From: Boletus sp. NGJ
Taxonomy: Eukaryota > Basidiomycota > Agaricomycetes > Boletales > Boletaceae
NCBI GenBank assembly: GCA_019096195.1
Contig: JAGTXK010000091.1
Coordinates: 868,001 to 932,000 of the forward strand
Length of the DNA: 64,000 bases
Direction: 5' to 3'
Shown: in pieces, positions 15,064 through 61,569 of the stretch
Position numbering within the stretch: position 1 is the first letter of the stretch
How the letters are laid out: each line of letters opens with the position of its first letter
Made by a program: the position numbers and the translations under genes
Notes under the pieces: generated by a model
What the model was told of the DNA's origin: nothing
The model's input: only the letters and a program-made list of their open reading frames with translations
Database searches by the model: none

Positions 15064-18000
15064 TTACAAGAAATCTACAGCACGTTTCCGTCCCCGGGAT
15101 GGTCCTAAGACCCCTTGAGCATCATCCACTTCCGTGGTGTCGCGACCATCATGGGTTCTCTCAACCGGAAGATCCCTAACGATATCCGGAGCTGGCTTCT
15201 CCACCCATACGTCATCCTCTACATACCCTCTGTGTTTCTTCCGTTTCTTCTTTGGACGATCCCGTTCCTTAGTTTCTCGCCGCGCTAATATCGAGAGCGA
15301 CTCGCCGCCGTCCTCGTCTACATCAAACGACACGAGAGCACCTGTTTTGGATTTCTTCCCCTTCTTTTCCTTCACAGCAGGCACTTTCGCATTTCCCGAG
15401 TGCGGTTGTGAGTCACGAGGGACGAACGTCGGTTTGAACGTCGATAGATCCACTTTGTCATCCACCGTGGCCCTTGCTTTCGCCCCATCTGTCGCAGTTG
15501 GAGAGACAACCGGCGTCTCGGCGGGTTTCTCCGTCGTTTGTATTGAGATCGAGGGCTGTGAGGGCATCAGAGCCTCAGCAGTATCGTCCCCTGGCGACTT
15601 GTTCTCCTCATCTTCGCTCTCCTCGTCATCGCTTGCAAAGATGGCTTTGAAGATACTCATCGGGGGCCGCTCGTAAGTGAGAATATCGTCCCCTTGTCCA
15701 TCGTCCTCTCCCAGCCCAATGTTCGCCAAGTCTCGCTGGCCACGTGGGACAGCAGGACTCGGCTGTACCTCCGTAACGCTGCCCGTCTCAACGCCACCTG
15801 CGCCACCAGTTGGCGCGTCCGCATTGGCAGACGTCGACGCCTCCGCCGTATCAAAGTGCACTTCCGCGTTAGGATCCTTGACGCCGAACCTCTTGCAGAG
15901 GAGACGCGCAGGCTGCCACGGTTTGACTTCCCTTGTCATCGAACCATACATGCCCAATCGGGCAGCGTGCACCTTTGGCTCTTCCTCCTTCTTTTCCTCC
16001 TCGTCTTCCACGATCGGTTCCTGTTCTCTTTCCATGGACGCTTGTTCTGCAGGGGTATGTAATCCTTCGACGATCTTGGGACCCAACTCGAGTACAGCAG
16101 CGCTCGTAAAACGTCCTGCCATCGCTCCCGAGACAGGACGGTAGAGGGCGGCAGCCTTGGCGAATTCGCTCATCTCGAGTGCATACGTCTCCGGCGTCTG
16201 GGTCTGCAGACGTGCAGGCATAGAGGTCCCAGAACCAGGTTCGGCATGTGCACGCAGATAAGTAGTATATCGGGATTGTTTGTTGGGGTTGGAAGTGAAG
16301 GGTTGGAACCCTTGCAATGCAGCCTGCGCAACGTGTGGTTCTATGTGAAAGATATAAGGTCCTTGGGATGGGAGTGTGCTTGGTGTTGGTTCTTGTTTTG
16401 CCGTATCGACTGTCGAGGGACCGGTGAAACGACTTGCTGTGATGGTCTTGATTCGTTCTTGGTCTTTCTTCGACATGTATTCGAAGACAGAGCGTGGTGC
16501 AGATGGAAGCGGCGTCTCTCCTAGTGCAGCACCTCGCTAAAGGGCGTGTCAGATAGGTGAACGTCGCGTCGCTCGGGGGGGACGAACCTGATCCGGAGAT
16601 ATCCCAATTTTCCATTGGGCATGCCTTTGGGGTTGTCCAGGTACAGGGAAATGTGGTATGTTTTCCTTCTCGCTGAGCGTTGCTCTCTCCCGTTCCCAAA
16701 GGGCCTTTGGATCAGATTTCCACCCTTTTGGTACTTCAGGAAGAGGGAACCTGCAGAGGTCGACTTACGTCGAAGGAGACTTTGACTCCGCAAACGACTT
16801 ACCACGAGACTTCTGCTACCGGTTTTTCTGAAAGTTTGAACCCAGGGAGTACAGGTTTGCCATCGCGGAACACGCCCGGACTGTTTGCTTGTATCTAGAA
16901 TACGTCACGCTACCCGTCCCCCTAGTAAATTGGGGACCTTACCGATGGTGTCCGAACAGTCGTACTGCTGGATTTAGCCCCACGACCACCAATAACAACG
17001 CGTTCTTCATCATGCATGTCGTTGACATCGAAAGCGTGTCGGCTTCTTCCATGACCTATGGCGTGATCATAAACGTCCAAATCATCCTCATCCGCATCGT
17101 TCAACGCGCCCAGTCCAAAACCACCTTTGGAATCAATGTAAGTAACAACAAATTCAAATGTGGACTGTAGGACATACCTGCGAGTCGTGGTTCTTGAGCA
17201 CCCTGCGCACCCTGTTCATGCACCCCCAAACTTGCATGGAGACCCAATGATCTGTTATATCCAAGGCCATGGAAATCATCTTTGCGAAGTACGACGATCA
17301 CTGGTGTATCCTTTGGCGCATACGTGTGTTTCTTGGCCTCCTCATCCACGTCTGGTCCAGTTTTGTCCGGGTCCCGCCCATGCTGAATCTCGCGTTGCCG
17401 CCACGTCACTCTCGGACCTATACCCTGACCTGGCCTCCACCCCATCTTCTTGAGGATACGTCCCCCCGCTGAATCCTTCGGTGAAGGTAACATGGCTTGT
17501 TCGAGCGCGAGGGTGATTGGGCTGACGTGGCGCAGGTTGAGCTAGGACAAATGCACAAGTCGAGAAACAACGCACTCTTTCTGGCTGTCGTCTACGCCGG
17601 TCTTACCGGCTCTCTCAGCCTGGGTACCCCCGAGAATATCCATTTCATCGTGTTCGCTAACGAGCTTTTGGTCCGCACGGAGTTCGGTGAGATCTTCTTC
17701 ATCCATAAAGTCCTCGGGTCTCGCCGTCCGAGCCTTGGCACGATCCGATCGCGAGGAAACGAACGTCGAGGGTGTCCATCCTAAATACGAATTCACATAC
17801 TGAACGCTAAATAGACAATATGACCGGACCAACCTTCCTTTGAACCAACTGAGTTGAAGTACCCGGCAGAGAAACCCCCGGTGAAAGCACCGTGTAGTCT
17901 TCTTCGGCCTTTTTCATCTCTCACCTAGACAGCAAGACATCAGATGAATAGCCCACTGATGAGCAGCAACTGACTTCTTGCTTCCAAAGCGGTACGAATT

Positions 18001-18178
18001 CGCCTGTGTCTCTGGACTTCTCGAGGGGGGGCAGAGGTGTGCCAATCTGCAGGAATTGTGAGCGGTACGAGGGCGGTGAAAGTGAAGAAATTACCAAGCA
18101 AAAGTTTTCATTTGCCCTCTTGCTCGAAGTATCGACACCCAAATCGCCAAGTTTCCGTTTGAGCTTTGCAGAGTTCAT
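15064..18178 (-). CDS. G-patch domain protein, GPATCH1 family (DUF1604 N-terminus)
   Basis: A nuclear RNA-processing factor related to GPATCH1, which associates with catalytic spliceosomes and DEAH helicases. The start is ATG 18178 ([14 protein letters not shown]). The N-terminal DUF1604 region includes [20 protein letters not shown], then [19 protein letters not shown], and [18 protein letters not shown] with [15 protein letters not shown]-patch follows near 17490-17400 ([18 protein letters not shown]). The C-terminal half has acidic stretches, [16 protein letters not shown] and lysine-rich patches, ending ...RKRAVDFL at 15064. Its first 430 bp are duplicated in inverted orientation at 54203-54629, where the copy is broken. 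The intron after KQE uses a GTCAGT donor. Confidence 0.92.
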
Positions 18179-18540
18179 GATGGCCCGTGGCTATCGAGCA
18201 TGTGAGTTGTGCCGTGACAGTCCGAATTACTTAAGCAACCTTGAATGCGAGAGCTCTTGCTACGACTTTCATCATGGCTGCTACTGTTCATATCTACCTG
18301 CCCAGTCAACTGAAGGTGCATCCACTGGCACCACCGAACACTGGATTCGGGCTCTTTCCATCCCGCGTGAAGATATTAAACGATTCACTCTTTACCCACT
18401 CAAATGGGTACGCTTCGCGGAGACCTCTCGGCTACCCCAGGAGGCGAGATAGTTGAGTATAACGTCTGATTCGAAAATCTCGAGCATGAATACTACTACT
18501 ATGCTCCCAACGGTAAGCTTGTGCTTCCTGCTCTATTAAT
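17751..18540 (+). repeat. segmental duplication, copy 1 (GPATCH1 5' end plus HNH-gene 5' end)
   Basis: This 790-bp block is matched, in inverted orientation, by 53815-54629. It spans the first exons of the GPATCH1-like gene, the short divergent intergenic gap, and the first part of an HNH-family gene. The left limit is near GCGAGGAAAC at 17751. The right limit is the motif CTCTATTAAT ending at 18540, after which the two copies diverge. Similarity is high, with small indels. Confidence 0.9.
18274..18540 (+). pseudogene. broken 5' fragment of an HNH-nuclease family gene (copy 1)
   Basis: Starts at ATG 18274 (MAATVHIYLPSQ) like its full counterpart at 54107 (minus). One T is missing relative to that copy just after the SQL codons, so the frame is lost. 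A block of about 25 bp corresponding to ATFTVCGAK is also missing near 18419. The fragment stops inside what is an intron in the intact copy, at 18540, where a LINE remnant begins. It sits head-to-head with the GPATCH1-like gene, 96 bp between start codons. It could still act as part of that gene's promoter. Confidence 0.85.
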
Positions 18541-18812
18541 GCCCATATGAGGTGGGCGGATTCCGATATGGAGCCGGCTCCAAGTATTTGTCCTATTGTT
18601 GGTTGCCACCATTCGGGGAGGGATGCCAGTTGGGGTCATGTGCGACGGGTCAGTTACCATATCGTAAGTCATTCGGGGCTGGGGCATGATAGGATGTGTT
18701 CGAAGTCTTCTACTGGGGCGTTGCAGTGGGCGCATTTTGCCCGATGTTCGTAGATTTGGATGTGGAGCCAGATGAAGAAAATCTTGATTCGGAGGTGAGT
18801 CCAAAGTTCACT
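18541..18812 (-). mobile_element. LINE (non-LTR retrotransposon) 3' fragment
   Basis: On the minus strand one frame reads KCAHCNAPVEDFEHILSCP, the Cys/His knuckle common after the reverse transcriptase/RNase H part of fungal Tad-like LINE proteins. Another frame then gives ILGAGSISESAHLIWAL, which resembles the conserved ISESAHLIW..RNE segment of these proteins. The change of frame and a stop between the two pieces show it is decayed. The fragment ends abruptly at 18541, joined to the HNH pseudogene. Confidence 0.7.
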
Positions 18813-18932
18813 GGGGACTCTCACCCCCGATCTCTCCGAGCTAGGACAAGACGTTCACGAACATTTCCGCTGAGTTTCGACGTTGTATACAGGGTACGCA
18901 TGGGCATCGCCTGTGCAGCTATGGGTACACTC

Positions 18933-20489
18933 TCATGCCCTCAGGCTGTCTTCCACTTCTACATCCACCTCAAAGTGTGGTTCCCACTCCACTTCTTCCT
19001 CATTGTCCGTATCTTGTGCTTTCTCTTTCCGCTCCCCATTTACGACTGTCAATCCTCCAGCATGTCTACCCTCGGCAACAGTTAAACACGTTAGGCGAGT
19101 GCCCTTAGTGTCATATTCCACTTCCGGATGTAGTTGCAAAGTTTCCTTCGTCTCAGCCGGCACTGCTGCCAGGTCATACACGAATATCTTGCCGTCAGAT
19201 GAAATAGTACAGGCGATCGTCGTCTGTGCTCGTGCGTCCTCGCTTTTTGATGGGGTTTTCGGGAGCGCAATATGAAGCGTCTCCACAGCTTTTACTCTAG
19301 CGAGGTATTGGTCAGTTATGCTATGGGCGGAGATATTCTAACATACCTATTTGAATGGCCGACCATCTCGGCGATTATCGTAGGTGGGAATTGTGGATCG
19401 TCAGATACTTGGTATATCGATACTTTTTTATCTTCCGCTGCGACCAATAAAAATTCTCCATCGCCGTTTACGCGCTTACAAAATCGTAGGCCGTGTATTC
19501 TTGATGGATGTGTGACAGTATGTCGCAGGACCATGTCCTACACGGCGACGAGGAATGAACATGCAGATGTATTTGCAAGGACAGCCACATACCGTAGAAA
19601 AGACATCAAGAGAAGACTGGGACTGGACGATGAACATCGAGCCCGACGACGACCATCTTACAACTTCGCCCTCTTCGTGACTAACTTTGAGTAGCGTCCG
19701 CCACCAACATCGAAAATCTTACCTTTTCCCAATTTCGTGCTAGCCGACCCCTTACCACGCATCAAATCCCACATACGCAAGGTCTTGTCATGCCCGACAC
19801 TCAATGCAACTTTTCCAGACGGGTGAATGGCGACAGAATTAACGCGGCCTTTGTGTCCCTTTAGCGAACGGAGGACAGTCCAATCCCGGGCATGGAAAAG
19901 ACATAGTGTGCCATCCTCGGATGCGGAGAGAAGATGAGAACGTGACGGAAATTGGAGATACGTGATAGATCCTGAGTATGGTTATTCTGGCCTGTTGTCT
20001 CCGGCGTCTGAATGAGCACATACCTTGGTGGTGCATCAGACCACCGATCTCTTTCCGCCTTGCCAAGTCCCACACCTTTACGATTTCATCTGAGCTTCCC
20101 GTAGCCAGCCATTTCCCTCCATTCGGTGATGCAGCAACAGCTTTGATAGATGACACGTGTGCAGGAAATATGAAGATGGGGTTCAAATGAAACTCGTAGC
20201 CAGATTCAGAGGACGTGATTGTCCCTTCGAGTCCGTAGAGCAACTTTTCGTAGGAGCCTGCAACGACGACGAAAGAAGCTGGTAACTCAGACTTGCGAGA
20301 TGGTTCTGGAGTGTTTACAATATCTTGATGGGTCACTTTGCGCTTTCCTTTATCTTTTGCAGAGAACGAGACGGATGACTTGCTTTTTGGGAGTTGTTGC
20401 TGATCTGATGGTTTTACCACGATGGGCTTTTCTATCCGGGCCTTTTTGAGGTTTCTTTCCGCCTTTCGAGTGGCTTTTGCTTCTGCCAT
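18933..20489 (-). CDS. MAK11: WD40 ribosome-biogenesis protein, MAK11/PAK1IP1 family
   Basis: Expected to act in 60S ribosomal subunit assembly in the nucleolus. The start is ATG 20489 (MAEAKATRKAERNLKKAR), with a basic, Lys-rich leader. WD repeats follow: FVVVAGSYEKLLYGLEGT; IFPAHVSSIKAVAASPNGGK with LATGSSDEIVKVWDLARR; ITYLQFPSRSHLLSASEDGT; LRSLKGHKGRVNSVAIHPSG with LSVGHDKTLRMWDLMRG; and a later pair with GEFLLVAAEDKKVSIYQV and ACTISSDGKIFVYDLAAVP. The C-terminal tail is acidic (DTDNEEEVEWEPHFEVDVEV) and ends at 18933. About five introns. A frame upstream of ATG 20489 stays open but has no ATG. The 3' neighbour is the LINE remnant. Confidence 0.88.
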
Positions 20490-36075: not shown

Positions 36076-38388
36076 ATGGACCTCGACGACGCTGCACCAC
36101 AGACAGCGAGGAGAACGTCCTCCGCACACGGCCGTCCCTCGCGCGCACCGTCTGGTCCACGGATACGCACGAGAACAATGAAGCACTCGGCCGAGCACCC
36201 CAGCCCCGGCCCGCCATCCGCGGACGGTCCCGCCTCCCCACTCTCCGTCTTCAGACCAGATTCACCCGGCGCCGACCCCGCCGCCCTCTCCATCGACGTC
36301 TCCCTCCCCCACCCACCACTCCCCGCGCTACCACATCCTCTCTTCTCGCTCCCCGCCCACGCGGACGCTGCAGTCCAGGTACTCTCCACCACACCACCCC
36401 CAGCCCCGTCTCCATCGCCAGCGCCCACCTCAAAACCCGCCTCCACGCTCCCAAAATCCACCGCCGCCGCTGGCACGACTTTCACACCCCCGCCCCCTCT
36501 CACACCGCCACCTGCCATCACGTTCGAGTCCAAGCCCATCCCATGGAGAGGCCTCCCGCTCGAAGCAGCCCAGTGGACCTTTTCCTCCACCGAGCTCCAA
36601 GAAATCGTCTCCAGTGCCATCCGTCTCAGCGCCCGCGAGCCCTTTGTCCGTCTGCTGTCCCTGCAAGCGCTCGAAGTCGACATCGTGCACGAGACAGAAC
36701 GCCTGGACGCAGAGCGCGTCGCGGCGCAGGCAAAATGGCGCTTCGAAGTCGGCCGGCGCACGATGCTCATGCAGGCACTCAATTCCAGCGCGGCTACCTC
36801 GGGGCCAGGCGAGAGTGCGAATCCGATTACGGCCTTCATTGGTCAGCTCGCTTCTTCCGTTGCGTCCTGCGACGCGCTCTTGTCGTCCATACTCCACTTT
36901 TCGGACCAACAGTCTCAGATTGCGCTCATACAGCATCAGCATTGGGCGTCCGCCCTTGCGGTTGCGTTGAGGAAACTCAAGAGGGCGTATGAATGCCAGG
37001 AACAGGAGCTCAAGTGCGCCCAGGCGAGGGCTCAGACGCTCGAGGACGAACTCGAGGAAGCGTGGCGGGAAGCAGAGAAAATGGCCATTGAATTCGACGA
37101 CCTCGAGGAAGAGGTCGCAGCTAATAGCACAGAGGATGGGTTACAAGGCATGGACGTGCCACAAGAGGACAATGGGGATGCAGAGTCACAGTGGCTTGAT
37201 GCAGGCCCACGCCTAAAAGTCAAGCAGGATCCAGACGAAACAGGTACGTTGGGTGATGTCAACACCGACGTTGCCGTCGTGCTTGGTGTCACTGCCACAG
37301 CAGTCGCCTCCAAGGCGACCCTCGTCTCTGCTCCGGTTAGCCCCAGAGTCACTGGCCAATCCGACACCAAATCGATTCGGTCAGTCAAATCGACACGAAG
37401 CCGACGGTCGATGCGTGATGGACCGGGTTATGTTTCACGTCTGTCTGCTGCGCGCACGCGCAGTCGCACTGCGTCCAATGCGAGCTTACGACTCCCAAAA
37501 GCACTCCGCTCGGTTCCGTCGACGCCCGTCAATGCACCGCCCATCCCTGCACTCCCCCAAGATCACTCCTTTTTAGACATGGACACCCTCGCCCACGAAC
37601 GGGTCCACAAAACCCTCCCACCACAACGTTTGTGTTGCGTACCCTCTTTCTTGTATACATGCTCACACGTCCCTACTCATCATCGTACAGCCTACCCTGA
37701 ACCGTCGCTCGCCCTCCCCATCCCACCTCACTCGGCAGGCCTCCCGCCGACCCGCGTCCCGTCCATCTGGCTCGAAACAGACGGCGGTGACAGTACGCGT
37801 CTCAACGGCCTCGATCGGACGCATTCGCTGCAGATCTTTTCCTCCCTCATGACGAGAACGCCGAGAAAAACGCGGCGGAGTAATCTCGTGATGAGTTTGG
37901 TGGGGTCAGATCAGAGTTTGATGGGGTCACCTGTGGAGACTAGCTTTGGCTCTCCCTCGAGCTTGGGCATGGGGATAGGAACAGGCGCAGGGACCGCCTC
38001 ACCGACCTCCAATAGCTCCCCCGTCTCGCTTCCGGCACACGCGCTCGCCCACTTTCGCAGTCCGAGTCTATCTTCGTCAGCGACGCCTCGACCAGGCTCG
38101 GCGGGTGCGCGTCTGACGACGACGATGGACACGCGGACGCCGATGCCGGTGGCGACGCCGAGACGGTCGCTTGTGAGTCGTGCGAGTTCGGTGATTTTGC
38201 GGCGGTTGTCGCAGGCGACGATGGGGGGGAGTAGGGGTGGTAAGGTGGCAGGTTTGGCGTCGCCGTCGAGGTCGCGTGAGGCGTTGCGGTTGAGTGGGGG
38301 TGGACGTGCGTTGGAGAGGTGGAAGGAGGAGGGGGAGGGACAGGTGATGGTGATAGGGTCACCGGATGCGGCGTTGTTGGACGGATGA
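36076..38388 (+). CDS. Pro-rich coiled-coil protein of unknown function
   Basis: One 770-codon frame from ATG 36076 (MDLDDAAPQTARRTSSAHGR). Residues 1-150 are Pro/Ser/Ala-rich and disordered. A conserved-looking helical block starts near 155 (KPIPWRGLPLEAAQWTFSST, then ELQEIVSSAIRLSAREPFVR) and continues to a coiled coil at about 290-350 (RKLKRAYECQEQELKCAQAR, then TLEDELEEAWREAEKM). The remainder is basic and Ser/Thr-rich, with SR-like motifs and low-complexity Gly/Ser near the end. An in-frame 63-nt segment at about 37628-37690 looks like an intron (GTTTGT to ACAG), so the spliced protein may be 21 residues shorter. I do not recognise the family; a septum, cytoskeletal or vesicle role would only be a guess. 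Confidence 0.75.
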   Translation: MDLDDAAPQTARRTSSAHGRPSRAPSGPRIRTRTMKHSAEHPSPGPPSADGPASPLSVFRPDSPGADPAALSIDVSLPHPPLPALPHPLFSLPAHADAAVQVLSTTPPPAPSPSPAPTSKPASTLPKSTAAAGTTFTPPPPLTPPPAITFESKPIPWRGLPLEAAQWTFSSTELQEIVSSAIRLSAREPFVRLLSLQALEVDIVHETERLDAERVAAQAKWRFEVGRRTMLMQALNSSAATSGPGESANPITAFIGQLASSVASCDALLSSILHFSDQQSQIALIQHQHWASALAVALRKLKRAYECQEQELKCAQARAQTLEDELEEAWREAEKMAIEFDDLEEEVAANSTEDGLQGMDVPQEDNGDAESQWLDAGPRLKVKQDPDETGTLGDVNTDVAVVLGVTATAVASKATLVSAPVSPRVTGQSDTKSIRSVKSTRSRRSMRDGPGYVSRLSAARTRSRTASNASLRLPKALRSVPSTPVNAPPIPALPQDHSFLDMDTLAHERVHKTLPPQRLCCVPSFLYTCSHVPTHHRTAYPEPSLALPIPPHSAGLPPTRVPSIWLETDGGDSTRLNGLDRTHSLQIFSSLMTRTPRKTRRSNLVMSLVGSDQSLMGSPVETSFGSPSSLGMGIGTGAGTASPTSNSSPVSLPAHALAHFRSPSLSSSATPRPGSAGARLTTTMDTRTPMPVATPRRSLVSRASSVILRRLSQATMGGSRGGKVAGLASPSRSREALRLSGGGRALERWKEEGEGQVMVIGSPDAALLDG

Positions 38389-38618: not shown

Positions 38619-38829
38619 TTTTACATGACAAAACGCCGTTATGCATACAATGATACCATTCATACATGCCTGAATTCAGAGTTTGGGAACAAACGAATCC
38701 CTCCACCTCCGAGCTTGGCCCTAGACCCAATTCCCGTCGAGAAGCGTCTCGAACCAAGTTCGACATCCCCGTCCATACGATGTGATGGATGAAAAACGAG
38801 TCCTTTTCTCTCAGTTGCCACCCAACAAC
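38619..38829 (+). repeat. dispersed repeat A, copy 1
   Basis: About 211 bp closely matching 52477-52698 in the same orientation. Shared landmarks are TTACATGACAAAA at the left, ATGCATACAATGATACCATT, CCTCCACCTCCGAGCTT, and CCATACGATGTGATGG. The match ends at AACAAC near 38829. It lies between two convergent genes and overlaps the last codons of the FMP52-like gene. Confidence 0.85.
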
Positions 38830-39838: not shown

Positions 39839-40741
39839 GTCGATGCAGGGGGACAAATTATTGGGATGACGAGTTATGTGTCGATGGTGAGGGTAAAGAA
39901 GCGTGAACACCTGACCGCCGCCTGGATCGAGTCCTTATAGGTTGGTGGTAGAGTATATCAGGAGGGAGCCGAACCGTTACCTGGCGTTTGCGTCACCTTC
40001 AGCCGGTAACTTGCAAGTATGTGACGACGCGCGATGCCGTGTCAACTCAATCGAGATGACGAGTGACACTGCCTCGACCGGGAACATCATACATGTTGGC
40101 TTTGACGGTTACCCAGGGTGCAGCTGCACGACGCAAACACGAAATTTGAACCGACGGAGACCGCTGGTTCACAAACAGCAGCGGAACTCTTGGTCAAAGG
40201 CATGTCCACTCAACCTGGTCTCGAAACTGGCGAGGAGTCCACTGCTGCACTGGACGACTTCAAGCACCCGACTGCTCCAGAAGCGCAGGGACCGTGAGTG
40301 ACAAAGATGCTCAAAGCATTGGTTCAGGCAGGAGAGCAGTGATAACTAAATGTTGTGCCATAGTGACGATGTAAGCTACGCTATGATGGCTACACAGTGC
40401 ACATTCCTTCTTTGCAGATGGGCCGGCCTGGCCCCAGGCTGTTTTTGATAACATCGTCCTTTCTCCTTGTTCCATTTCTCCCATTCTGCAGCCATTGATT
40501 TAGGTGTAGTAGAAGAAATCAGTTTTATGATCCATGAATCGTTTGAATCGCCCCCGGGGAGATGAGCAAACGACCATGGGAAGTGAGAACATTCTGTGAC
40601 GATAAACCTCAAAAGGGTATAGAACATTAGCGTGAACAGTAGGCCAATTCCCCAAAATTTTGCACAGGGGAAATCATGGATACCCATAACAAACCACTCG
40701 AGCGATGTGCGTCTTTTTCCCTCGTACACCCACGCGTTCGG
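39839..40741. other. intergenic with a short HNH-gene remnant
   Basis: No full gene seen. The segment 40435-40512 is similar to the 3' coding end of the HNH-family gene (see separate entry). The rest is the upstream region of the FMP52-like gene and the 3' flank of the YTP1-like gene. Confidence 0.5.
40435..40512 (-). pseudogene. short remnant of the 3' end of an HNH-family gene
   Basis: On the minus strand it encodes STTPKSMAAEWEKWNKEKG, matching TTPELMATEWEKQNREREQ at the C-terminus of the HNH-family gene (52790-52867). Roughly 80 percent of about 75 positions agree. No other part of the gene is found beside it. Confidence 0.55.
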
Positions 40742-44406: not shown

Positions 44407-47295
<2,889 letters not shown>

Positions 47296-47665: not shown

Positions 47666-49956
47666 TCACGACTGGTCCTCACTAGGTCCTCCGCCAAGTC
47701 CATTCACTGACGAGCTCGGCTCTGATGCCAACGTGGATTTGTCTTTAGACCGTCGAACGAGGATGCGCCGCATGATGACGAACATGAGACACCCGAGAGC
47801 AGCTGCGATCTGTTGTTGGTGACAAAAAGTATTGGCGTGGGTTGGAAGATCAGAAAACGATGTTTCGAAAACGGGAAAAAAACGATCAGGAAATGTAATT
47901 AAAAATAAAAGGGGTGAGGGGGGGAGTAAAAAAAAGAAATTGAAATGGAGGGGGGGGGGCGCAACGTACCCCGTTGAAGACGGCGCCTCGCCACCAGATA
48001 TATGCGGGCGTGAGGAGGGCGCCGGATATAGGGGGACCTGTGTGGGGGGTCAGCGTGAGGAATGGTCAAGTCGTGCGGCGAGAAAGCGAGTCTCACCGAC
48101 GAGGCCACCGATCGCTATAGAGAGGGAGATACGACGTCAGCGGGATGCGTGCATTCAGATCAGTACAGCCTGAGGGCATGAGAGCGTACCCATAGCTGCA
48201 CAGGCGATGCCCATGCGTACCCTGTATGCGAACGTCAACATTCGGAATAAATGTTCGTGAACGCGTTCGGCTTTGATGACGACTTACCCTAGCTCGGAGA
48301 GATCGGGGGTGAGAAGTGTCATCACGGGCGTCCACAGCGCTAGAACTGCATACAAGCATGGTGAAAAAAGGCGTTTCGTCGTAACGAGTAAGCCCGAGCG
48401 TGATCGGCCGAGTTTATCAAATGTGGAGACGTACATATTCCAGCGAAATAGCCATACAAGACTCCAAAGACGACGACGCCCGTCACCGTATGCACACCAA
48501 TCATCCCAAAGAGGATTACGCTGCAGCAAAATGTGGCGATGGTGACTATGGCGGGGACGCGGAGGTATCCAACAAGGACGGTCGAACTAAGTTGACCGAT
48601 GAAGCTCGAGGCGTTCATGATCACGAGCTGTTATCCCATCGTCGACTCAGGTTCAAATAGATGAAGATGAAGAAGGAAAACGCAACTGAGTAGAACGAAA
48701 ACGTATTTCCCAACCCATGTCTCACGGCGTCGAGCTGGAGATAAAACAAGGGATAATAAAAACCCACAACAAAGATGGTGAGGCTATGTACACCAGTCAG
48801 ATAGGTGCTATGCAGACGTTGAGAGGATAGCCGTGACTCACCCAAGGCACCCAAAGATGAACGCACTGTCTCGGCCACATTTTTTGGCGGCAACGACAAA
48901 GTTTGTGCGAGACTCGGAAGGCGGTAGTCTTGTTCTCATCAACAGACTTGCGATCAACAAGAGCCCGCTGATGAGCCCGGCGCTGGCGCGAACGCCCTTT
49001 GCGAAACCGAGTTGGCCATTGAGAGTGTTGTTCAGCATAATGGGGTGTACCACTGCACCGAGATAAGCGCCGGAGGACGCGAACGTCATGACTTGTGCAA
49101 GGCGCTTGTCGAAGTGATGGGACAGGACTGCCATGGAAGGGACGTACAACAACCCCACGGCACATCCAGATGCTATCCCCTGAGCGAGAAAGATCTTGGC
49201 GTCCCCGTCAATCAGTGTATGATTTACATCGTGTATGCGCACCTGAACATAATTGTCTGGACGCGCCAGTGAAAGCATGAAAATGGAAAAGGCCTGCAGT
49301 AGAGATGCCCCATAAAGTAGGTGATAACTAGTTGTGGACAAGTTGAAACGAGAATAATGATTTGCCGCATGGGACTCACAAATAGCCACGATCATACATC
49401 CTGCCGGCCAAAAGTCCGCATATCTCGAACAGAAATGCGTTTGTGCTCCCAATCCACCTGTGAAGTACGAGTGAAAGGGAGAATACAATCGCCAGCTGGG
49501 CGACTCACGCGATGGTGGAGGATGTCTCGTTGGTGATGTACGTTTGAGCATAGAAATCTCAGAGGTTCGAGTTAATGATCCATCTTGATAGAACGGTGAC
49601 CGCCATACCTTGATACACCCCAAATGAAATCGTGTAGCTAATAGACGATCGCGTAAGGACTCGAAAAAGAAACTGCTACGCTTAGCGCTTATATAACTTA
49701 CCCATACGTGCAGAACTGGACGAGAAATCTGTTCAAGAGTCATCAGGAACGTCGAGGACCACCATGAGGACAGTTGCATCTGCACGCACGCGCCGATAGC
49801 GGTTGCCCACCCTGCAACCCCGCCCTCGCGAAGGTCTTGCGATTTCGCATTCGATTCCTTCGCCGCAGGAGACCCGGGCCCCAACGCACTGCTTTTCTCT
49901 TCCCCTTTCAGGGAGCTCTGAGGCACTTGTGTATCGTCTTTTCCTCCGTTGCTCAT
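47666..49956 (-). CDS. MFS transporter, monocarboxylate-transporter-like
   Basis: A 12-helix major-facilitator permease of the fungal MCT-like/riboflavin-transporter group; substrate unknown. The chosen start is ATG 49956 (MSNGGKDDTQVPQSSLKGEE). ATG 50039 lies in a possible 5' leader exon. The first helix reads GWATAIGAFLVQFCTYG across an intron, then YTISFGVYQ and FYAQTYITNETSSTIA WIGS. Later helices: LYGASLLQAFSIFMLSLARP, IFLAQGIASGCAVGLLYVPS, AQVMTFASSGAYLGAVVHPI, RASAGLISGLLLIASLLMRT, GLTIFVVGFYYPLFYLQLDA, MNASSFIGQLSSTVLVGYL, TIATFCCSVILFGMIGVHTV, and MGAIGGLVGPPISGALL. The C-terminus is read to a stop at 47666 (GGGPSEDQS). About 13 introns; one of about 150 nt is strongly G/A biased (47818-47968). 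Confidence 0.88.
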
Positions 49957-50345
49957 ATCTGACGATGACGAGAAGGAAGATGTGAGTGAACGGGACTGTC
50001 GTCGCTTACGTGCTCGGACGTGACTCGAAGGCGACTCATGTAGCGCCTTCAAGTTCGTCGAGCAAGCCCTCGAATTCCCTTCTCAGCTCGATCAGGCATT
50101 CGCCAGACTCATTAACCAAGAGCAAACGTTGATGTAAGTAGTAGACTCAGACCTCAAGTCATTTCTCTAACTTGAAGCTCGCTCCTTGTTTCTGGAGCAA
50201 TGGCGATGTGCTACTAGTAGTTCACTTTGCTTATTATTAGGCTACTCCTTGTCACTTTCCCACCCACTTGGAGGCCGCCTATTCACCGGTAAGCATGTGT
50301 ACACGTTGTACAACCCCTTACTCCTGGTCTCCTCCATTTATGAGA
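49957..50345. other. upstream flank of the MFS gene
   Basis: No separate gene recognised. May contain a 5' UTR intron for the MFS gene (GTAAGC near 50008 in minus orientation). Confidence 0.4.
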
Positions 50346-50674
50346 CGATCTTGTGAAGACGGGTCAACCTTTTCAATCGGCGTAAATAGAGGTTGCGCAA
50401 CAGAGCTTTTTTGGAAGACTCAAGACTTGGACTGACTGACAGTGGCAGCCAATTTGGTTACCTGACGAATCTACAACTGTGAGGTGCGTGAGGCTTTCAG
50501 ACCGCTGGGAAGGACTGCCGTGTTCTTTGTCAATGCCAGAATCACGAATCGGGGTTGAACGTTGAACTTCCGAGGAGCCATGCATATACACCTCGTGGGA
50601 CCTGCGGCTATTCCAGCTGATACTCGAATTTGTGTGTATATCTGAAACCTGGTCACCGCTTCGTCAACCCGTTC
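50346..50674 (+). repeat. 329-bp dispersed repeat, left copy
   Basis: Matches 56533-56861 in the same orientation and of the same length, with many substitutions and small indels. Shared landmarks are CTCAAGACTTGGACTGAC, CAGTGGCAGCCAAT, TTCTTTGTCAATGCCAGAAT, GAGGAGCCATGCATATACAC and GGTCACCGCTTCGTCAACCC. The two ends are imperfect inverted repeats of each other (TTGTGAAGACGGGTCAACC against the complement of GGTCACCGCTTCGTCAA). This suggests a MITE-like unit, but no target duplication is evident. Confidence 0.85.
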
Positions 50675-52461: not shown

Positions 52462-52476
52462 GACCCGGGTTCTTAC

Positions 52477-52698
52477 ATGACAAAATGTTGTTATGCATGC
52501 AATGATACCATTCGTACACGTGTGTTTCGCCTGAAATCAGAGTTTGAGAACAAATGAATACCTCCACCTCCGAGCTTAGTCCTAGTAGTCCCAGCCCCTG
52601 TCGAGTAGCATCTCGAACCAGGTTCGACATTACCATCCATACGATGTGATGGTTTAAAGTGGATAAAAACAAGTCCTTTTCTCTCACTTGCCCCAACA
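52477..52698 (+). repeat. dispersed repeat A, copy 2
   Basis: The counterpart of 38619-38829, same orientation. It begins at TTACATGACAAAA just after the transcription-factor pseudogene and ends at AACAAC near 52698. That is 17 bp before the last codon of the HNH-family gene on the other strand. Confidence 0.85.
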
Positions 52699-52714
52699 AC
52701 TTATCAGTAGTCCT

Positions 52715-54107
52715 TCACTCAGGAAACAGGCATTTAATGAAAGCACCCACAGATGAATCTGAGTTCAGCCACTGTTGTACCTTCTCACAACTATGTTCTT
52801 GAGAACGTTGTTCCCTCTCCCTGTTCTGTTTCTCCCATTCTGTAGCCATCAATTCAGGTGTAGTGCCCTTCACCATCATTGACAAGTATAGGACCATATC
52901 CATGGCTTCGAGTAAGCCTGCTGACGCATCCGACGAGAATGTTTTTCTCCCTTTCTCGTTTGTCCCTCCGAGGGTTTCCCAATCTCGGTCGTTGTTCCCT
53001 GGATCAAGTCTAACTCAACTTCGGATTCATCGTCTTCGGGAGTGGAATGTTTTGGATTTTCAGCCAAGACTTTACTGAAGTCATCTTCAAACCGTTTCCG
53101 CAGCACGTCACCCAAAGGATTGCACCCCCAGCGCTTCACGACGGCAGCCCCATACATGAAGTCAAGCAGGATGCTGGGTGGGGGTGGTAGTTCATCACGG
53201 GACCAATCGGCTCGAATGTCCCATTGCTCAAGAGAACCTCGTCCCGTATGTGGTTTCATTAGATACTGTAATGTCGTCCGGCTGTGTGGAATAGGACCTT
53301 GCTCAATCCACGGAACATCGGTGGGTAGCATAGCAAAATTTGGAGTCTGAACATGGCACATATTAGAGACAAGTGTAGGGGGGACAAATTTGCGCATACA
53401 TTAAGGAATCCAATTACAGCCATGCCAAATTCTTGATGTAGGTCCTTGCGCAGAAGTATTCCATTCTCAATACAGTTGATATCAACATCGTCATCAAGAA
53501 AGAATGGCAGTTGTTCGTATAAACTGGAGCGGTCACGAACAACATAAGTAATATACTAATGAAAAGGTAAGCATCGCCCAGGGCCTGCCACGATCTGGTG
53601 AACATACGTTGCTGCCTTTGCTGTTAGGTATAATATGCGCTGCATCGCAAAATCCATGGCTACGCCCTGTGATAACGCAACTATTGTCGCGTCTGCGAAT
53701 ATCCTCGCGGAAGTTGGTGCGTCGTGGAGTAGCCGCAGTTGACGTGACTCCGTCATTAAATGCCTGGTAGTCAGTGAGATGGTACGTGTCTGTCTCGACA
53801 CATCGTCAGAATATATTAATAGAGCAGGAAGCACAAGCTTACCGTTGGGGGTATAGTAGTATTTATGCTCGAGATTTTCGAATGAGACATTGTCATGCTC
53901 GACGATCTCGCCTCCTGGGGTAGCCGAGAGGTCTCCCTTGGCGCCACAAACGGTAAATGTGGCGAAGCGTACCCATTTGAGTGGGTAAAGAGTGAATCTT
54001 TTAATATCTTCACGCGGGATGGAAAGAGCCCGAATCCAGTGTTCGGTGGTGCCAGTGGATGCACCTTCAAGTTGACTGTGCAGGTAGATATGAACAGTAG
54101 CAGCCAT
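52715..54107 (-). CDS. HNH-nuclease domain protein, Agaricomycete family
   Basis: A member of a fungal family with a C-terminal-half HNH nuclease fold; biological role unknown. The start is ATG 54107 (MAATVHIYLHSQLEGASTGT). N-terminal block: EHWIRALSIPREDIKRFTLY, PLKWVRFATFTVCGAKGDLS, FENLEHKYYYTPN. The HNH core at about 53640-53720 is TNFREDIRRRDNSCVITG, then GFCDAAHIIPNSKGSN, with the conserved Cys and the AHIIP histidine. Next come LPFFLDDDVDINCIENGILL, RKDLHQEFGMAVIGFL and TPNFAMLPTDVPWIEQGPIP. The C-terminal helix LLEAMDMVLYLSMMVKGTTP ends at 52715, but lies in a different frame from the preceding acidic segment, which otherwise stops at 52876. A small intron or a frameshift must separate them. 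The exact joins near 53770-53850 are also uncertain. A possible 5' UTR intron precedes the start. Confidence 0.78.
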
Positions 54108-54629
54108 GGTGAAAGTCGCAGCAAGAGCTGTCGCATTGATCTGAAGGTTGCTTAAGTAATTCGGACTGTCACAACTCACATGGTCGATAGCCACGGGCCA
54201 TCATGAACTCTGCAAAGCTCAAATGGAAACTCGGCGATTTGGGTGTCGATACTTCGAGCAAGAGGGCAAATGAAAACTTCGCACTTTCCCCGCCCTCGTA
54301 CCGCTCACAGTTCCTGCAGATTGGCACACCTCTGCCCCCCCCCCTCGAGAAGTCCAGAGACACAGGCGAATTCGTACCGCTTTGGGAAGCAAGAAGTCAG
54401 TTGCTGCTCGTCAGTGGGCTATTCATCTGATGTCTTGCTGTCTAGTAAGCGAGAGATGAAAAAGGCCGAGAAGACTACACGACGCTTTCACCGGGTTTCT
54501 CTGCCGGGTACTTCAACTTGAACTCAGTTGGTTCGAAGGAAGGTTGGTTCGGTCATATTGTCTATTTATTGTTAAGTGTGTGACTCAATTCGTATTTAGG
54601 ATAGACACCCTCGACGTTTATGTCCTCGC
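53815..54629 (-). repeat. segmental duplication, copy 2 (inverted match to 17751-18540)
   Basis: About 815 bp carrying the 5' part of the HNH-family gene and the 5' end of the GPATCH1-like gene, head to head as in copy 1. Limits: ATTAAT at 53815-53820, and CCTCGC ending at 54629, beyond which the sequences differ. This copy keeps the HNH frame. Confidence 0.9.
54203..54629 (+). pseudogene. truncated, broken 5' copy of the GPATCH1-like gene
   Basis: Begins with the same ATG context as the intact gene ([20 protein letters not shown]). A deletion just after NENF removes the first intron's GT donor. An extra C run and other small indels break the later GTPLPP and GYFN parts. The sequence stops after the equivalent of the GWTPST exon start, at 54629. 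It is about 14 percent of the parent gene and cannot encode the G-patch. Confidence 0.85.
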
Positions 54630-54739
54630 CTAAGAGAGCGGGAAAGCGACAAGGAGTAGCCTAATAATAAGAAAAGTGAACTGGCACATGACAAATGCTA
54701 GAAACATATGTAGGTGCAAAATAAAGCTCGAGTCAGCGA

Positions 54740-56450
54740 GCCTTACCCAGCCACAGAGGTTCCCTACGCATTGCCCCCCGCGTTTCACAGACCCACAACA
54801 GCTTCCCGAGGGTTACCGCTACGGGAACAAGGACTACGTCTACGAGACCAAACGCGAGTGACCATGCATCATGATGATGGTACACACAGGGGCTCAGCGC
54901 TCACTTCTTGCATACGTAGATTGTTATCAGCCTGCCAATGATGGACAGGGTGCAGGTTATATTCCATTTTCGATTGCTTTGGCATGATGACGGAAAAAGA
55001 TGTGTTGTCAGGAACCTCCATGGTCGACAGGAAAGGTCTCGGTGAACCGTCGGAAGATCCGTAAGTCAACGATCCTACTTTCCATGACGCCTTTCCTCGA
55101 CCGACGACTTACATTCTTAGTCTCTTCGTGAACATCGTATCCCCGTCATCGTTCACGCGTGACTCCAAGTTCCCGGTCAAGGTATACATACACGGAGGGT
55201 ACGCTTTTCCCTTTATTGTCCCCGAGATTCGCCGCGATCAACGAGTTTACATCTCCAGGTTCCTCCAGTTCGACCCTCCTCATGGGCGTAACGCTCAGGC
55301 ACAATATGTCGCTCAAGGACGTTCAGAGGTCTGGGTTAACATCGAGTACCGTCTTTCGGTGTTTGGTTTCCTTGCCTGCGATGAGCCCAAGATCGACGGG
55401 AACTTTGGATTCAAGGATCAATGGCTTGTACTACAGTGGCTCCAGGAGAATATCGAAGGGTTTGCAGGTAATCGCCCTTGGTCTATAGGTGAACACAGGA
55501 CTCATAGAGATGTTGGGCAGGTGACCCGGCTAATGTACAGCTCTCTGGGTTATCGGCTGGCGAGTGATGAGCACGCAATGTAGTGCGAGATGAGGGATAG
55601 CTCACGCTGTCGACAGGCGCCCACTCGGTCCACCAGATTCTCCACCATGTATCTCACCACCCCGAGGGTCAGAAGTCCCCCATCAAATCTGTTGTCCTCC
55701 AGTCCGACTCGGACGGTACCTGGATCCCCACCTCCCTCGACTCAATGATCTGGCAGTGCTCCGGCCGACTCACACGTAAACTGCGTGAAAAGGGCTTGAC
55801 GAGCGATCTCTCTGAGGAGTGGTACCTCTACACGATCGCGCATCCCGTTCACGGACCACGCGACGTCTTCCCGAACATCTTGCGGTACTATCCGCTCCAG
55901 ATCGTGGAGCGCCTCGTGGAACAGTACAGGGCGCTTTCAAACTGTGCGAGCGTCGAAGAGGCGGAGATATTGATATCTTGAGCGATGGGCCAGGTGCACG
56001 TCCCCGTGCGGATATTCGTGCGGGACTTTTACAAGGCAGATTTCCGAGTCGTGAGGTACGAGATCAGGTGGACGCCTGAGCATGTGAGGCCGAGGGGTGA
56101 GCCGAGAGGTTGGATGCGCTTTGGGTGACCGAAGCGAGTGGTTGCGATTTTTATCTCTTTTTTTTCTTTTTAAAAACAGGGCTTGTCACGCACGGCACGG
56201 ATCGCTGTTTCTGGGCGCTTCGCGTTCCGAGTTTGACTGCTGCACAGAAAGAGGTGGCAGTTGCCTGGCTGGACGCGATCGACAAAGAGTTTGAAATTCT
56301 TGAGCGCGAAGGGAAACCTACGCGACCGCTCCATCAAGCGCTTACGCTAAGAGAAGACCAGACGATCGCATGGCAAAACGATAAGAGGTGGGACCAGCTC
56401 ATGAATATCGCCAAAGTCCTACCTGGAAGAAGGTTCGTAAACCCATCCCC
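54740..56450 (+). pseudogene. carboxylesterase type B (alpha/beta hydrolase), degraded
   Basis: Segments in family order: FTDPQQLPEGYRYGNKDYVY, QPANDGQGAG, FVNIVSPSSF and KFPVKVYIHGG, then QAQYVAQGRSEVWVNIEYRL, IDGNFGFKDQWLVLQWLQEN, GAHSVHQILHHVSHHPEGQK, SPIKSVVLQSDS, RDVFPNILRYYPLQIVERLV, VHVPVRIFVRDFYKADFRVV, RYEIRWTPEHVRP, then (after an intron at about 56094-56178) GLVTHGTDRCFWALRVPSLT and KRWDQLMNIAKVLPG. A TGA at 55979-55981 falls where the family reads about SDGQVH, and the early part needs several frame changes. The nucleophile-elbow region after ENIEGFAG is scrambled (about 55470-55600). The gene once covered most of an esterase of about 550 residues. Confidence 0.75.
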
Positions 56451-56532: not shown

Positions 56533-56861
56533 CGATCTTGCGAAGACGGTCAACCTTTTCGATCGGTAAATAGAGGTTGCAGAGTTCTGTTGGAAGGCTC
56601 AAGACTTGGACTGACCGAGTGGGACTGTCAGTGGCAGCCAATCTGATTACCTGACGAACCTACAACTGTGGCTTCCAGACTACCGGGAAAAACTGCCGTA
56701 TTCTTTGTCAATGCCAGAATCACACATCGGGGTTGAACATTGAACTTCCGAGGAGCCATGCATATACACCTCATGGGACCTGTGGCTATTCCAGCTGATA
56801 CTCGAGTTTGTGTATATCTGGCCCGGGGTGACCACCTGGTCACCGCTTCGTCAACCCGTTC
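56533..56861 (+). repeat. 329-bp dispersed repeat, right copy
   Basis: The counterpart of 50346-50674 in direct orientation, about 6.2 kb away. It starts at CGATCTTG and ends at AACCCGTTC as the left copy does. It has a small insertion (GCCCGGGGTGACCA) absent from the left copy. Confidence 0.85.
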
Positions 56862-59097: not shown

Positions 59098-61569
59098 TCA
59101 CACTGCTGCACCATTTGCAGCTGCTTTATTACCCTTATTAGTACTGTGTGCCCTTCCATGCCCTCTTGCTAAAACAGACTTCTTGGGATTGTCCAAAACC
59201 TCCTCTGATGTCTCTAGACTAAAAGCCACTTTACCTGCCTGTGGGTTTGGAACTTGGAGCGACACCATAGAAGCCTGCTCAGTACCAGCAATGTCATTGG
59301 ATGATACAATTTCCACCATTGCACTGGATGATGAGCTAAGGGTAGACTCTAAAAGATCTGAGTTTTGGAACTTGGAATGAGATACCACTGGCAGTGAGTC
59401 AGAATCTGGCAGTGCCATTGCCATGGCAGCCATAGCAGCATTGATGTCAGCTGTGAAATCCTCATTTATTGTTGTGGTACCTGATGTGTGAGCCTTGGTT
59501 TTGCCAAAGACTTGTTGGTTGACTTTGCTGACCAAGTTGAGAACATATGGTGTGTCCTAGCTATTGACGAAGAGGTGCTTGTACTGAAAGAACAGTTTGT
59601 GATACTGGATCTCAGAGTTGGCACCAACACCATCCTTAGGAAACTGGGAATCAGGTGAAACAAGAAAGACTGCCTATAATTTTAATCAAGCAAGTAACCA
59701 TTAGGGATTCAGACAATTTAGATATAAAAACAAAGAAATTCGTACTGACTATGATGGCAGCCCATGCAAGGCACCCTGGAGTACAGTAGGTTACGCCCCA
59801 TATCATTCCATTGGATTTTCCACCAGGGTGGCATGTGACATCATGTGTAAGGGCGGTCTGTCCCCAAAACACAATATGAAGAATCTATGATTAGAAAATG
59901 ATCCAGTTAATATCAATGAAAAGTAGAGTGACTGTATAACATATAGAAGCAAGTAACTCCCAGTTAGAGAAGGGAGTGCATGCATTGACTTTGTGATCAG
60001 TATAGAGAAGCGGCAGGAATGTGGGATACTTGGGCTTGGTGGTGTCCTGTGGTATTCTGAGTAGTACACAAATTTCTGGGAACTCGAGGTGATGAGGAGC
60101 AGTATCACAGCTGAAGTAATGATTGCCAGAGGGCAGTTGAAAAAGGTTGTTGGCTGCCTGATGAAGTTTGTGGAGTTTGCTAGATTGGCCAGTGCTAACA
60201 TGAGTCGCTAACTGAGTTATTGATACATTAGTTTATATGTGATATTAAATTGAATCATGAATATACAGTGGCTCAAAAAAGTGTCCCAATGTTTGACTAT
60301 TTTGCAAAGACTTGATATTTGCAAAAGAACCAAAAGGTATTAGCCCTAACCCTTGCTGGGCCATTGATAGCCCTAATCCTTGCCCTGAAGATGAGCCCTT
60401 AGTCATATAATTTGGTTGTCATGGTACTGAATTATAGCCATATTAAAAGGATAGGTCATTGGGACACTTATTTGACCCTGATATTATCAACTATCATTTA
60501 GTAAATAACATAAGGTTCTGATGGATGCTGTGCTTCAACCCTGTCTGATTATGTCACTTACATAACTCCAAATGGTATAAAGAGCAGAGATACCATTCAG
60601 CCAACCCTACTTCATTATGAAATCAAAAGGAGTATGGGAGCTTTGGGAGAGAATTGAAGTGGAGTGGGGGAAGATAGAGGTTGAGGAGTGTCAAGGATTG
60701 ATAGAGGGTATGCCTAGAAGACTAGAGGCAGTGATAAAAGCAAAGGGAGGGCATACAAAGTACTAAATTGAAGAATAGAAATGTTGCTCAAAAAAGTGTC
60801 CCAATGACATGTCACTTTAATATGACTATATCTCAGTGCCATGACAACCAAATTATATGACTAAGGGCTCATCTTCAGGGCAAGGATTAGGGCTATCAAT
60901 GGACCAGCAAGGGTTAGGGCTAATACCTTTTGGTTCTTTTGCAAATGTCACAGTCTTTGCAAAATAGCCAAACATTGGGACACTTTTTTGAGCCACTGTA
61001 ACATACCTGATCAGCGAAATGGTGTGACGTTTGGAGGTTTTGGATGTGAGGTGGAAGTATCGAGTCTAGCTCTGCAACAATTGCTGCTTCCTCCGCGAGG
61101 CTTGATGCATAGCGGGCCTTACTGACGATCTCTAATGACATAGGTGACATGTTTGATACACCAGGAGTTAGTGGGTGACTGAGAACGTCTTTCGACAGAG
61201 GGAACATTTCAACCAAGACTCCGAATTTCTTTGCGAGAGTCTGTATTTCGGTATCAAAGGTGCCAAGCACCTCAGAGACAGAAGCTTTCATTGACTTGCA
61301 TGATCTGTTTGCCTCAGCAATGCGAACCTGCTCCTGTAAGACATGACACTGTTCTTTCACAGCATCAAGCTCAAGCTGTGCCTGCCTCAATGCCTGTTCG
61401 ACACATAAAGATCAGTTCCGTGGACTTGAAGTGTTGAAATCAATCGCAGGTCGTTGCTTACCTCGTCATTCTGGGTTTCCACTGTGGCTAGGCAGGGATG
61501 GATGACGACAGGTTCATCATCGTCGAGATCCAGAAGAACATTAGCAGCATGACCAGAGATAGCAGGCAT
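59098..61569 (-). CDS. DUF6698-like Agaricomycete protein, possibly decayed
   Basis: The start is ATG 61569 (MPAISGHAANVLLDLDDDEP). Exon 1 ends at DE before GTAAGC. Exon 2 is a coiled-coil segment (LRQAQLELDAVKEQCHVLQE) plus IVAELDSILPPHIQNL, ending at about 61012. Intron 2 contains a 733-bp Tc1-type insertion. Exon 3 (from about 60212) reads LATHVSTGQSSKLHKLHQAA to TPFSNWELLASICYTVTL. Later exons have GGKSNGMIWGVTYCTPGCLA, then WAAIIAVFLVSPDSQFPKDG, which fits the DUF6698 core. A C-terminal Ser/Ala-rich tail ends at 59098. An in-frame TAG at 59557-59559 (between YKHLFVNS and DTPYVLNLVSKVNQQVFG) would truncate the product unless it is a sequencing error or a readthrough, so it may be a young pseudogene. 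Role unknown. Confidence 0.6.
60266..60998 (+). mobile_element. Tc1/mariner-type deletion derivative with long inverted ends
   Basis: 733 bp, starting CAGTGGCTCAAAAAAG and ending with its exact complement, flanked by TA on both sides (60264-60265 and 60999-61000), the Tc1/mariner target. The inverted ends are about 212-215 bp long and nearly identical (60266-60477 and 60784-60998). The centre keeps the C-terminus of a Tc1 transposase at 60620-60766 (GVWELWERIEVEWGKIEVEE, then MPRRLEAVIKAKGGHTKY and stop). The preceding catalytic region is deleted, with only a worn SANPTSL-like trace. It lies inside an intron of the DUF6698-like gene, in opposite orientation. Confidence 0.9.

Follow-up and report, generated by a model that had tools for sequence, protein, structure and literature searches.

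We analyzed a stretch of 64,000 nucleotides from Boletus sp. NGJ (assembly GCA_019096195.1, contig JAGTXK010000091.1, positions 868,001 to 932,000 of the forward strand), here referred to as the window; all coordinates are positions within it. It contains an inverted repeat, here named the block, whose copies at 18 kb and 54 kb carry the starts of two divergent genes, a GPATCH1-like gene and a gene of the HNH family. An earlier reading of these letters, here named the sequence-only reading, had described a block of about 800 bp and had proposed a segmental duplication after which each locus lost a different partner. The features of both sites are listed in Table 1. Intron size and gene content are in keeping with a mushroom-forming basidiomycete. 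The window does not contain a single N.

Table 1. Features at and next to the two copies of the block
Feature	Position	Strand	Remarks
GPATCH1-like gene, whole, 9 exons, 901 aa	15064..18178	-	spliced open frame; head-to-head with HNH remnant
18-kb block copy	17751..18540	+	GPATCH1 exons 1 to 3 plus 30 bp of exon 4; spacer of 95 bp; HNH exon 1 plus 27 bp of intron 1
HNH pseudogene start, truncated	18274..18540	+	deletions of 1 nt and 25 nt; stop codon; match breaks off abruptly at 18540
Filler, 278 bp	18541..18818	- (frame)	follows 18-kb block; no other match within window
MFS gene fragment	18819..18949	+	inverted relative to 48165-48314; end of exon 10, intron 10, exon 11, start of intron 11
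WD40 gene	18933..20489	-	Pfam WD40 6.9e-27; last codons and stop inside MFS fragment
MFS transporter, whole, 14 exons, 465 aa	47666..49956	-	gene model; PF07690 4.8e-22; includes 48165-48314
HNH_2 gene, whole, 5 exons, 385 aa (or 357 aa with shifted end)	52715..54107	-	gene model; PF13391
54-kb block copy	53815..54629	-	self-match and alignment
GPATCH1 5' stub, truncated pseudogene	54203..54629	+	cut 30 bp into exon 4; alignment with 18-kb copy
Possible lost WD40 tail	54630..54665	+	AKRAGKRQGVA, then TAA TAA TAA, when joined to 18950; inside a repeat

Extent and composition of the inverted block

Comparison of the window with itself at an E value of 1e-5 gave 8 repeat pairs. The best-scoring self-match paired 17751-18540 on the plus strand with the inverted segment 54629-53815 (E 0.0, 1019 bits), which is where the block had been placed before. 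The alignment of both copies comprised 841 columns, of which 729 were identical, with 35 substitutions and 14 indels that account for 77 gap columns. The ungapped identity, introns included, was 95.4% (729/764); the sequence-only reading had set about 60% as the lower limit for its duplication. Divergence of the single exons, introns and the spacer ranged from 0 to 13% in small segments, and coding and non-coding parts showed no separating pattern. The highest value was found in the final 83 bp on the GPATCH1 side; this part, 30 bp from exon 4 plus 53 bp from intron 3, held 9 substitutions.

The start codons of both genes lie head-to-head and 95 bp apart in each copy, and Pfam matches, for GPATCH1 also PDB matches, agreed with the names GPATCH1 and HNH that had been given to them. 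To judge from the aligned copies, the block is duplicated as DNA, because the introns were duplicated too. Retroposition was ruled out for the same reason, introns being present in both copies. No third copy was found within the window, though a decayed HNH 3' end sits at 38.6-40.5 kb.

The GPATCH1-like gene and its stub

The GPATCH1-like gene at 18 kb is whole, as had been claimed, and all of its eight introns are GT-AG. The N-terminus matched Pfam DUF1604 (8.9e-41, 138 bits versus a cut-off of 25) and a downstream stretch matched the G-patch domain (7.2e-8, 32.7 bits versus a cut-off of 22), the two pieces being scanned separately; DUF1604 followed by a G-patch domain is the arrangement of the GPATCH1 family. 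Additionally, three PDB sequences that bear the name GPATCH1 or G patch domain-containing protein 1 matched the N-terminus (1.5e-38 to 1.2e-27). No relatives of the gene were revealed by scans of viral and prokaryote contigs, which detect close relatives only.

The stub at 54 kb had been described as broken and missing its first splice donor. The donor is indeed lost, by a deletion of 15 nt, but this is not where the gene is broken: the remainder of intron 1 reads on in frame. The frame is disrupted by one inserted nucleotide in exon 2 and by deletions of 1 nt and 2 nt in exon 3, and the gene is cut off at 54629. As a consequence of the donor loss an open frame of 75 codons spans 54203-54430.

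The HNH gene and its remnant

At 54 kb the HNH gene carried the domain PF13391 (HNH_2; 3.1e-12, 46.6 bits versus a gathering cut-off of 21), and a single match below the cut-off was obtained in NCBIfam (E 0.077). The claim that this copy is whole holds for the model of 385 aa, in which a further intron, the fourth, removes 77 nt. If those 77 nt are read through, the C-terminus is shifted and the frame stops after 357 aa. The HNH side at 18 kb is broken as described before: besides the two deletions, there is a TGA in the frame that its second half uses. No relatives were found in viral contigs by a scan that detects close relatives only, and a literature search on PF13391 in Agaricomycetes returned nothing.

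Further HNH-type sequence was observed between the two sites. The segments 38621-38829 and 40440-40510 are direct matches (78-80%) to the HNH 3' flank (52473-52700) and to the C-terminal coding end (52794-52864), respectively. Together they represent a second, decayed HNH 3' end, its two pieces about 1.6 kb apart with other sequence in between.

The 18-kb junction

Beyond position 18540 no HNH remnant above chance was detected, either by blastn of 17-21 kb against 45.5-57.5 kb (word size 7) or by tblastx of 18480-19000. Next comes the filler. Its minus frame, AKCAHCNAPVEDFEHIL..SESAHLIW, presumably resembles the C-terminus of a fungal long interspersed nuclear element (LINE); a Pfam scan of 18541-18818 with the window's own letters gave no match. 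A LINE split between 18541 and 54630 was considered and rejected, as the joined ends give no convincing continuation and the filler has no Pfam match.

The filler is followed by a fragment of an MFS transporter gene, a feature that has no place in the sequence-only reading. It is identical to 48165-48314 in 119 of 131 ungapped positions; 11 of the 12 differences fall within one intron, around an indel of 18 nt, and the donor of intron 10 is lost. The complete MFS transporter is the next modelled gene beyond HNH at the 54-kb site, and the fragment is colinear with the block, in inverted orientation. When the 7 other repeat pairs were placed at random, a colinear inverted match of this kind arose in 0.6% of trials, and in 1.8% when one arm was forced into 47-57 kb.

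The WD40 gene ends inside this fragment; in its model one exon joint is off by one codon. The gene is presumably Mak11/PAK1IP1-like. PDB was searched for such relatives as a check on the tail: the full-length protein retrieved 585 sequences, and the 60 listed among them bear other names; the C-terminal half gave one match (E 0.96). The 3' end of the WD40 gene was initially regarded as an ancestral flank common to both loci. This was dropped, since 48165-48314 consists of MFS exons and introns.

The 54-kb junction

On the far side of the 54-kb copy, no GPATCH1 remnant above chance was found past 54629 in the same blastn comparison or by tblastx of 54615-54780. When the cut end of the WD40 gene at 18950 is joined to 54630, the frame runs on for 11 codons and then meets the three stop codons given in Table 1. 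Among 20,000 random joins 17.8% yielded a tail of 8-15 aa and 1.3% such a tail with at least four K/R, by a criterion (8-15 aa, at least four K/R) that was set after the tail had been seen. The join of 18950 to 54630 is no more than suggestive of the ancestral end of the WD40 gene. At the outer end of the 54-kb block starts one member of a short inverted repeat pair, 50187-50269 and 54632-54706, with 66 of 83 columns identical.

Next to this junction a carboxylesterase gene was observed at 54740-56400 (PF00135 1e-18, frame 55128-55583). It seems to be broken, with two frames near the start and no recognisable first exon.

Origin of the two copies

It was correctly proposed by the sequence-only reading that the inverted duplication arose while both gene starts were sound and that a different partner survives at each site. 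The history offered for this, a copied block at which each locus later lost a partner independently, should have left remnants of HNH beyond 18540 and of GPATCH1 beyond 54629, and none above chance was found by blastn or tblastx. Several indels and no sign of constraint in both stubs would suit such losses, and missing remnants are also expected after complete deletion of a partner's body. The ends of the block are at the same time the cuts, so that two independent truncations exactly at the repeat ends would be required. We regard this history as very improbable.

Several observations point to a single event instead. Within the window, duplicated DNA lies inverted at both ends of a segment of one chromosome, and at each end of homology one partner is cut off. 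The body of GPATCH1 is present at 18 kb alone, which is outside the interval; those of HNH and MFS are present at 48-54 kb alone, which is inside. Each doubled end thereby meets one neighbour, presumably the old one, in one copy only. A plain copy would have kept both neighbours at its source, which favours an inversion over it. The MFS fragment, the end of the WD40 gene within it and the possible tail at 54630 also fit an inversion, though unevenly. The reciprocal pattern can arise in one step, since DNA filled in between staggered nicks appears inverted at both ends. The two blocks are therefore probably scars that a single inversion with staggered breaks left at its two ends, the inverted segment measuring about 36 kb (from 18950 or 18541 to 54629). 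One flipped piece of chromosome is also the simplest reading when set against a copy and two separate losses. The facts collected by the sequence-only reading were right, its interpretation is supported in part, and its history is better replaced by such an inversion.

Under the proposed inversion, GPATCH1 and HNH would originally have stood head-to-head round one spacer of 95 bp, which may have served both as a shared promoter, with MFS farther on the HNH side. On the GPATCH1-HNH side the two strands would have been broken at staggered positions, and filling in of the free ends would have doubled the DNA between the nicks. The segment would then have been rejoined upside down, with the doubled DNA inverted at both ends. 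GPATCH1 would have been left outside with one copy of the common 5' region and HNH moved to the far end with the other. Both genes may have survived in this way because each retained a start region, and the severed partner at each site would have decayed.

Two versions of this scheme may be distinguished. In the first, the stagger would span about 6.5 kb and reach from exon 4 of GPATCH1 as far as MFS (17751...18949 corresponding to 54629...48165), and the middle of the 18-kb copy would have been deleted later. In the second, the stagger would be 0.8 kb, and the MFS and LINE-like pieces would be filler copied during repair. It is conceivable, though we put it forward only tentatively, that one inversion cut GPATCH1, MFS and WD40, parted GPATCH1 from HNH and left all of them alive, each of the two partners with its own promoter, and that the WD40 gene exchanged a basic tail of 11 residues for five residues read backwards from an MFS intron.

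A duplicative insertion was weighed as well. Here, a segment from GPATCH1 exon 4 through HNH, perhaps including MFS, would have been copied from 18 kb to 54 kb in inverted orientation, and most of HNH and MFS would later have been deleted at 18 kb, with no inversion at all. GPATCH1 is whole only at 18 kb and the 54-kb copy stops inside it like an inserted segment; the colinear MFS fragment suits a longer copied segment, and additional HNH-derived pieces are present at 38.6-40.5 kb. On the other side, MFS continues only at 48 kb, which makes the extra deletion at 18 kb necessary. Neither the inverted orientation nor the placement on the same chromosome is predicted, and the end of the WD40 gene inside the MFS fragment is left unexplained. 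In our view such an insertion is unlikely, but less so than the independent losses.

Some observations weigh against the inversion itself. The 278 bp at 18541-18818 match nothing else in the window. The HNH 3' pieces at 38.6-40.5 kb were copied locally without any sign of this inversion, and since HNH-type sequence was already dispersed in the region, a duplication that involved no inversion would not be surprising. The block and the MFS fragment diverged by 4.6% (35/764) and 9.2% (12/131), respectively (Fisher p 0.053). The version with the long stagger predicts equal divergence of both, so that the unequal values weaken it a little. The repeat at 54632 is likewise more diverged (9/75) than the block (p 0.012). 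As this stretch also occurs at 50187-50269, the reading of 54630 as a WD40 tail is not clean, and the PDB searches did not yield a WD40 orthologue with a comparable tail. Furthermore, no relative with the unflipped order was obtained from the scans of viral and prokaryote contigs, which are confined to close relatives.

The short repeats at both junctions lead to a third alternative, repair by template switching (microhomology-mediated break-induced replication, MMBIR, or end joining that copies filler in). On this view, patches taken from nearby in one messy repair, with or without an inversion, would account for the block and the MFS fragment as well as for the LINE-like piece and the repeat at 54632-54706. 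Short matches to 48165-48314 at the 18-kb junction and to 50187-50269 at the 54-kb junction are in agreement with this. The patches diverged by 4.6, 9.2 and 12% (ungapped) and may lack one common date, and colinearity of the block and MFS pieces is not required of patches. We consider this origin improbable. We also considered that two older inverted repeats recombined and so inverted the segment, a route that demands a second block in place before the inversion.

Other features of the window

A direct dispersed repeat of about 330 bp with 81% identity (50346-50674 and 56533-56861) is perhaps a transposon remnant. A further inverted repeat (60264-60475 and 60788-61000; 213 columns, 93.9% identical, 312 bp apart) resembles a hairpin or a miniature inverted-repeat transposable element (MITE). 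On the plus strand, 36076-38388 is open for 770 aa and had no Pfam match at E 0.01. The region 45109-47198 contains an AAA ATPase gene (PF00004 8.1e-48, Vps4_C 9.6e-7), and upstream of it two stretches are about 48-49% identical to parts of this gene in a tandem-AAA-like arrangement. Scans of the window for tRNA genes and Rfam families found nothing.

Comparison with known inversions

If the proposed inversion is true, a break inside a tight divergent gene pair of a compact genome can spare both genes by copying their common start region. It would also serve as a warning that an inversion in one step can leave a repeat with reciprocal gene loss as its scar. A literature search with fungal terms, judged by titles and the beginnings of abstracts, did not bring up such a scar in a fungus.

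The process of inversion by staggered breaks is well described in Drosophila. The following comparisons refer to excerpts of the cited reports. In D. mojavensis the inversions 2q and 2h doubled about 1, 4.3 and 7.1 kb of DNA; a partial gene lies at the 2q breakpoint, and one 2h copy was reduced by deletion, the 7.1-kb duplication having been cut to 2.7 kb by several deletions in one copy (Guillen and Ruiz 2012, PMC3355041). The window resembles this case in the partial gene at a proposed breakpoint and, in the version with the long stagger, in the one copy reduced by deletion. The uninverted order of D. mojavensis is known from another species, whereas here the segment of about 36 kb is of fungal type and we infer the ancestral order.

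For E12 and other inversions of D. subobscura, staggered breaks with doubled DNA of a few hundred bp to 8 kb have been described, and a working copy of the affected gene is expected at one breakpoint (Puerma et al. 2016, PMC4965816). The mechanism, the size range of the doubled DNA and the expected working copy are in agreement with our proposal. E12 doubled a complete gene, in contrast to the doubled common start of a divergent pair whose partners survive at different ends. Among fungi, foldback inverted duplications after double-strand breaks in yeast (PMC10622511) are similar in that inverted duplicated DNA results from break repair. Those are reported as foldback inversions, whereas the two arms found here are separated by about 35 kb of other sequence.
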